Positions 2,473 through 2,987 of a stretch of DNA of 64,000 bases are shown here, one piece after another. Under the pieces are notes generated by a model. It was not told the origin of the DNA and did not search any database. It was given only the letters and a program-made list of their open reading frames with translations. The DNA is from Ulva prolifera (Eukaryota; Chlorophyta; Ulvophyceae; Ulvales; Ulvaceae). The first letter of the stretch is position 1; the number at the start of each line of letters is the position of its first letter. The stretch spans positions 1,960,485 through 2,024,484 of the forward strand of contig CM041204.1 in assembly GCA_023078555.1 (NCBI GenBank), read 5' to 3'. Position numbers and translations under genes: made by a program.

Positions 2473-2568
2473 TGTGGTAATTAAATGGTGATCTGTCTTG
2501 CTATTGATACCTCTGTTCAATACACACAGAACACCTGTGCATCTTCTGTTCAGACAAGATTTGTGTGG

Positions 2569-2692
2569 TGTGTGTGTGTGTGTGTGTGTGTGTGTGTGTG
2601 TGTGTGTGTGTGTGTGTGTGTGTGTGTGTGTGTGTGTGTGTGTGTGTGTGTGTGTGTGTGTGTGTGTGTGTGTGTGTGTGTGTGTGTGTGTG
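2569..2692. repeat. (GT)n microsatellite, about 62 units
   Basis: Uninterrupted GT/TG dinucleotide run of about 124 bp in the loop of the inverted repeat. The open frames of alternating Cys-Val or His-Thr over it are artefacts of the dinucleotide. Confidence 0.97.
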
Positions 2693-2766
2693 AGTGTGCT
2701 GGTGAAAGGTATAAATACCACTGTGCTTTCTGTAGCAGACATCTTGTCTGAACAGAAGATGCACAG

Positions 2767-2878
2767 GTATGTACCTCCAGCCACTATAGCTCAGATTATG
2801 TTTTAGAGTGCTAAGTCTTGTTGTGTGTGAACACTAGTACTGTGGGAAGCAAGTTTGCTCAGAGAGCATTCACTGCAG
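2767..2878 (+). other. Candidate introner or retained intron (112 bp)
   Basis: It begins with a strong donor (gtatgt) and ends with ctgcag, in the context CAG|GT...CAG|GT. It is absent from the otherwise matching inverted copy at 2473-2560. No second copy was found in the window. Whether the host sequence is transcribed is unknown. Confidence 0.5.
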
Positions 2879-2987
2879 GTGTTCTGTGTGTATTGAACAG
2901 AGGTATCAATAGCAAGACAGATCACAATTTGATTACCACAATGCCGTCTGACACTGTGTGCCAGGGACAGTTGCTTTGGCTGCAGAG

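Follow-up and report, generated by a model that had tools for sequence, protein, structure and literature searches.

According to one report (PMC1181622), copia-type retrotransposons primed by a half-tRNA form the Hemivirus group, which includes copia, 1731, Ty5 and Osser. The element family that we describe here from Ulva prolifera resembles this group in having a single frame for Gag, a zinc knuckle, integrase and reverse transcriptase, in its TG...CA LTRs, in its 5-bp duplications and possibly in the candidate primer site GGTTATGGGCC behind the LTR. It differs in that its LTR holds the segment exon 1-U5 twice, one copy with an intron, and that a putative 5' splice site and poly(A) signal separate the two copies. 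Osser, too, comes from a green alga, Volvox.

Retroviruses package unspliced RNA. For HIV-1 and foamy viruses, the literature describes a splice donor that silences the 5' poly(A) site through U1 binding (PMC12789967). The Ulva element would be similar in that one end sequence is ignored as a poly(A) site in 5' position and used in 3' position, with splicing signals sorting the two, but different in that its poly(A) signal would be excised together with an intron and the spliced leader would serve as the cDNA template.

Penelope-like elements, whose hallmarks are a GIY-YIG nuclease and a reverse transcriptase of their own type (PLE) in the absence of an integrase, reportedly contain introns, according to a report from 2003. 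Tandem pseudo-LTRs are among the features ascribed to them (PMC11167929). Tandem end copies and reported introns are common ground with the Ulva element, whereas the enzymes and the priming of Penelope-like elements are of another kind. We had suspected a Penelope-like element from the tandem ends and the intron and rejected it, as the internal frame encodes a copia gag-pol with integrase and RVT_2 between true LTRs.

A literature search on Ulva copia elements returned nothing on this architecture by title, and one on introns in LTRs or spliced strong-stop DNA returned no such case by title or beginning of the abstract, which is weak evidence of absence, with most subscription papers outside the coverage. 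The architecture is new within a known kind of element, and it is real and unusual.

A solo LTR and its copia-type family

The window, as we call the whole stretch of 64,000 nucleotides that was analysed (assembly GCA_023078555.1, contig CM041204.1, positions 1,960,485 to 2,024,484), contains two adjoining pairs of inverted arms, which a repeat finder gave as 97% complementary over 65 nt (2473-2537/2876-2940) and 94% complementary over 33 nt (2533-2565/2736-2768). A preliminary description had stated that the left arm, 2473-2560, equals the reverse complement of the right arm once 2767-2878 is removed, and that this segment starts with a donor, GTATGT, and ends with an acceptor, CTGCAG. Both statements are borne out, with 2741-2940 as the right arm. 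When the 112-bp segment is taken out, the 88 nt of 2473-2560 and the 87 nt of 2742-2766 plus 2879-2940 align with 85 matches, 2 mismatches and 1 gap column, and the inverted-arm observation itself is confirmed. The extent given earlier, 2473..2939, was too narrow, and the LTR nature of the arms had been overlooked: the full unit is an LTR flanked by a target duplication (Table 1). Only this single LTR stands between the duplications, a second LTR and the internal region being absent, which makes the window copy a solo LTR that stems from a copia-type element of family A.

Table 1. Anatomy of the solo LTR, in window positions
Feature	Position	Strand	Remarks
Target-site duplication, left copy, ATGCC	2339..2343	.	
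Solo LTR, 597 bp, TGTGG...CCACA, copia-type retrotransposon family A	2344..2940	+	Pieces 92-97% alike to family A loci (first 130 bp 89-97%)
U3, first 129 bp	2344..2472	+	97% to L009, L010, L011
Spliced exon 1-U5 copy, inverse orientation; ends at LTR terminus and inferred RNA start	2473..2560	-	
TG repeat in U3, 69 copies	2562..2698	+	Far shorter in L009
TATA box TATAAATA	2710..2717	+	31 bp before A and 33 bp before C of ATCTTGTC; spacing as in relatives
Exon 1 with R (inferred RNA start), ends CAG	2741..2766	+	
Intron 1, GTATGT...CTGCAG, 112 bp	2767..2878	+	99-107 bp in 21 relatives measured
U5 exon, ends at LTR terminus CCACA	2879..2940	+	
Target-site duplication, right copy, ATGCC	2941..2945	.	

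A search of the whole genome (assembly of 88.9 Mb in 44 contigs) with 2473-2939 gave at least 125 match rows, with both arms of each copy counted apart, which indicates a repeat family rather than chance; among the matches listed, the whole arrangement of the window did not occur a second time. The matches that were fetched, a part of these rows, lie in LTRs of this kind. In agreement with an origin from Ulva prolifera, a plastocyanin exon of this assembly matches PDB chain 7pcy, a protein of Enteromorpha (Ulva) prolifera, at 48 of 48 residues. Loci L011 and L012 each possess two LTRs, which are alike at 703 of 706 and 703 of 704 positions, and an LTR pair of L018 is alike at 678/678. In L011 and L012, GGTTATGGGCC lies directly behind the 5' LTR and GGGGGAG precedes the 3' LTR; GGTTATGGGCC appears to fit the anticodon arm of the initiator tRNA, and we take it to be a candidate primer site. 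The frame of L012 comprises 1314 amino acids with the domain order Retrotran_gag_2, zf-CCHC, Pol_BBD, gag_pre-integrs, rve, SH3_retrovirus, RVT_2 (Pfam names). As the gag-pol frame of L011 is split in two, present-day activity of these elements is a candidate property only. Among the loci examined, exact 5-bp target duplications flank the window copy as well as L011, L012, L013, L014, L017, L018 and L022; four of the five positions agree in L015, and L016 has lost its left end. With the integrase ahead of RVT_2 in one gag-pol frame, TG...CA LTRs and 5-bp duplications, the family is a copia-type LTR retrotransposon.

A shorter form occurs in family B, where locus L018 (C1:5969500-5979400) has a period of 2071 bp with three fully identical 678-bp LTRs and two internal regions, which match the inside of family A over about the first 600 bp only. 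This is seemingly a short non-autonomous element. Loci L019 and L021 show a spacing similar to this period. We had considered an array of small RNA genes from the regular 2071-bp spacing and discarded it, as L018 reads LTR-internal-LTR-internal-LTR of the short family B element.

Elsewhere in the window, a tandem array of 5S rRNA genes (42900-64000; unit of 404 bp, 52 gene matches) reaches the window edge. Related copies of a repeat with GGACTGAGTTGTGAGTGCGGTTGT lie at 3346-3502, 4931-5089, 5470-5571 and, inverted, at 5592-5760, and this repeat is also found in L025. A frame at 28544-29527 contains leucine-rich repeats (Pfam LRR models).

Two exon 1-U5 copies, with and without intron

In the relatives of the window copy, the two copies stand in direct tandem: U3, TATA box, 33 bp, exon 1-intron-U5, a gap of the form GTGAGA...TGTAAT, and then exon 1-U5 without intron up to the end of the LTR. 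Exon 1 measures 24-25 nt, the intron 99-107 bp and U5, which ends in CACA, 62-64 bp; the gap of 23-26 bp starts with G/GTGAGA and contains TGTAA. The strict gap motif occurs 27 times in the genome and 0 times in the control. The search by gap motif that located 22 places in the fetched loci itself required GTGAGA, but this sequence also follows the first U5 in 13 of 15 LTR places of relatives that were selected for resemblance to the window rather than for the motif; the remaining two (L022, L027) lack the whole gap. The distance from TATA to exon 1 is 33 bp at 21 of the 22 places, the upstream part having been lost at the other, the first of L020. In 21 copies, the intron starts with GTATGT, GTATGC or GTATAT and ends with CTGCAG, TTGCAG or TTGTAG, edge letters that were partly required by a script seeking GTAT and AG/GTG. 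Consensus splice sites and precise absence from the second copy mark segments of the 2767-2878 type as probable spliceosomal introns.

Some LTRs are shorter. Those of the window, L015, L016 and L022 (the last with an exact duplication, CCCAT) end at the first U5, and in L027 the primer site adjoins the first U5 directly. Such LTRs could have arisen from a premature jump of strong-stop cDNA to the first U5 or from a loss between the two U5 copies.

The distribution of the intron is strict. For families A and B, the whole genome was searched with an exon 1 pattern that admits either the intron or an intron-less continuation; it matched 62 places, and none in the reversed control. Units in U3 context contain the intron in 33 of 33 cases and units in gap context in 0 of 28; the 62nd place is the inverted arm of the window. 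A partner follows 216-220 bp on for 27 of the 33 U3-context units, and the six without one are the window copy, L010 (cut off), L015, L016, L022 and L023, in which the gap is present and the second copy broken. The pattern for family C matched 14 places, 11 of the intron type and three intron-less, each of the latter 211-213 bp behind an intron-bearing place. Eight of these 11 intron-bearing places have no intron-less partner within the reach of the pattern; among them, L027 alone was fetched.

This distribution bears on two further histories that the preliminary description had proposed alongside the copying of a spliced RNA. A simple deletion between CAGGT repeats, which could guide such a loss, might have stripped the segment from the left arm. 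It is very improbable, for it would require the identical, exact loss, ending at splice sites, in 28/28 gap-side copies and in none of the 33 U3-side copies. We find it harder still to credit a recent gain, in which insertion of an introner-like element into an exon 1-U5 that had no intron produced CAGGT on both sides. The CAGGT flanks of 2767-2878 are present as described, yet they lose their value as evidence of insertion because splice-site rules already predict them for any intron between AG/GT exon ends. Moreover, the intron occupies the same position in three families that are only 61-72% alike in the intron, so that it is older than the families, and the fetched genomic matches lie in LTRs of this very kind.

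Both copies change in concert. We compared them in 19 LTRs with both copies intact, leaving out the first LTR of L020 as well as L023 and L025, whose second copy is broken. The two U5 copies of one LTR are identical in 14 of the 19 and differ at few positions in the other five (3 in L014, 2 in L017, 1 in L020, 3 in L026 and 7 in L028). In the pairs compared between families A, B and C, similarity is 65-77% in the first U5 and 61-72% in the intron; for A and B, the gap agrees at 25/26 and the intron at 73/112 positions. Columns that distinguish two families nevertheless agree between the two copies of an LTR, in 21/21 cases for A/B, 31/35 for A/C and 25/29 for B/C. All exceptions in the latter two comparisons fall in one set of four columns, in which family C, represented by two loci, has different letters in copy 1 and copy 2. 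Three variants within families were likewise found in both copies of an LTR, one in L009, one in L011, L012 and L013, and one in L021. A U5 that differs by about 30% between families and matches inside each LTR implies that one copy was repeatedly rewritten from the other. To judge from these alignments, the rewriting is frequent and recent, and the intron never crosses in the 61 units of families A and B.

This concerted change could also stem from gene conversion between adjacent copies. The tandem copies would then have been made once, long ago, from spliced RNA and since been homogenised by DNA gene conversion or unequal exchange, and the present cycle would do without splicing. Near-identical neighbouring copies are indeed good substrates for conversion, and in the two family C loci compared the divergence between the U5 copies is larger. 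Under conversion, copy 2 should at times acquire the intron or copy 1 lose it, which is seen in 0 of 61 units of families A and B, and the gap with its donor is better kept between families than the intron, which speaks against this history as well; we consider it improbable. Copying from spliced RNA is favoured by the arrangement of the copies over both recent intron gain and simple deletion, and of the histories first proposed it is the one that finds support: the intron-less version begins 31-33 bp past the TATA box, the distance at which a transcript is expected to start, stops at the LTR end and, in the relatives, changes together with its intron-bearing counterpart.

A proposed replication cycle through spliced strong-stop DNA

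From the anatomy, the target duplications, the strict intron pattern and the concerted change of both copies, we infer a cycle that involves splicing, distinct RNA ends, strand jumps and, for the window, capture of a cDNA. The RNA would start at copy 1, in exon 1. In the 5' LTR, intron 1 (GTATGY...YTGCAG) would be spliced out, and so would a second intron that reaches from GTGAGA behind the first U5 to an AG formed by CACA and the G of GGTTATGGGCC; this putative intron 2 spans 112-113 nt in LTRs with both copies intact. The spliced RNA would thus read exon 1-U5-primer site. As the TGTAA poly(A) signal is situated inside intron 2, splicing would remove it at the 5' end; in the 3' LTR it would take effect, and the RNA would end in the second R. 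UGUAA is described as the predominant poly(A) motif of Ulva linza, where it occurs in 66.7% of 54 sequences bearing a poly(A) tail, and, with the exception of Pyramimonas, the chlorophytes studied show a peak of this motif near -17 (PMC1868727). At this distance, the poly(A) cut would fall inside the second R, that is, the second exon 1.

The strong-stop cDNA made from the spliced 5' end would correspond exactly to the second copy and would pair with the second R at the 3' end. By this jump, U5 copy 2 would be remade from U5 copy 1 in each cycle, with intron 1 left in place. It tells against the model that intron 1 would have to be spliced in the 5' LTR but retained in the 3' LTR of the template RNA.

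The second acceptor, CACAG/GTTA, is present in six of the eight LTRs that run into primer-site-like sequence (L009, the first LTRs of L011, L012 and L021, and the first and second of L018); the exceptions are the first LTR of L019, which has A for G, and L028, where the site is changed. In LTRs followed by host DNA, a G behind CACA occurs by chance only, as in the second LTR of L011 and in L013. L020 contains two LTRs at a distance of 2070 bp, apparently belonging to one element. Both have a letter in U5 copy 2 that is missing from U5 copy 1, which is what descent of the two second copies from a single cDNA would produce.

Two simpler schemes were rejected. A single long splice that joins donor 1 to the AG closing exon 1 in copy 2 is possible, yet it would provide no means of copying the first U5 into the second. 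If intron 1 alone were spliced, each cycle would add one unit, which the unit spacing does not show.

Taken as a whole, the explanation that spliced strong-stop cDNA rebuilds copy 2 in each cycle, and that the window arm is such a cDNA captured in inverted orientation, is in our judgement probable. The five LTRs with unlike U5 copies, the two deviating acceptor sites and the unpaired intron-bearing places of family C count against it. We are less sure, with confidence only a little above even, of the full proposal that splicing is a built-in replication step, with the start site and the poly(A) site in two R copies, excision of the intervening stretch as introns at the 5' end, a second acceptor completed by the primer site, and the window as a captured, inverted, spliced strong-stop cDNA.

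The inverted arm and its implications

In the window copy, about 195-200 bp of U3 that are present in L009 are replaced by the inverted spliced copy: U3 runs to 2472/2473, is followed by the inverted copy and resumes from TTTGTGTGG. On the outside, the inverted piece ends at the LTR terminus; on the inside, it ends within about 3 nt of the inferred RNA start. A strong-stop cDNA has just these two ends, and capture of such a cDNA would explain the inversion in one step. During first-strand synthesis, a switch onto and off the spliced strong-stop cDNA would have led to its inverted uptake into the U3 of an LTR that ends at the first U5, with no copy 2. Each arm differs by one letter near the U5 end from the form found in L013 and others (CACCATTTGATTACCACA), an indication that the arms have diverged separately since.

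The inverted arm might instead stem from a DNA rearrangement after insertion, by which copy 2 was excised, inverted and moved into U3. This alternative concerns the window copy only and is compatible with the main reading of the family. The joins share 1-2 nt of sequence, as is common in end joining, and do not tell a cDNA from copy 2 as the source, and the inner end fits copy 2 as well as it fits a cDNA. A rearrangement would need several breaks, the loss of the ~195-200 bp of U3 and of the gap, and LTR ends that remained intact, and it would make the agreement of the two arm ends with the LTR end and the RNA start a matter of chance (about 1e-4 by a naive estimate for a 713-bp LTR, a rough figure calculated after the fact). 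We regard rearrangement as rather unlikely and retain cDNA capture as the preferred origin of the arm.

Passage through spliced RNA normally erases introns. If the proposed cycle is true, the element offers a simple answer to two long-standing questions about LTR retrotransposons. One is how an intron can be kept, namely by remaking the spliced copy in every cycle: a spliceosomal intron would be carried through the RNA stage without loss, and reverse transcription of the spliced leader would restore an LTR with the intron. The other is how a poly(A) signal can be passed over at the 5' end yet act at the 3' end: an acceptor completed by the primer site would make the 5' and 3' LTRs behave differently. 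The existence of copies with near-identical LTRs makes this cycle testable in the alga.
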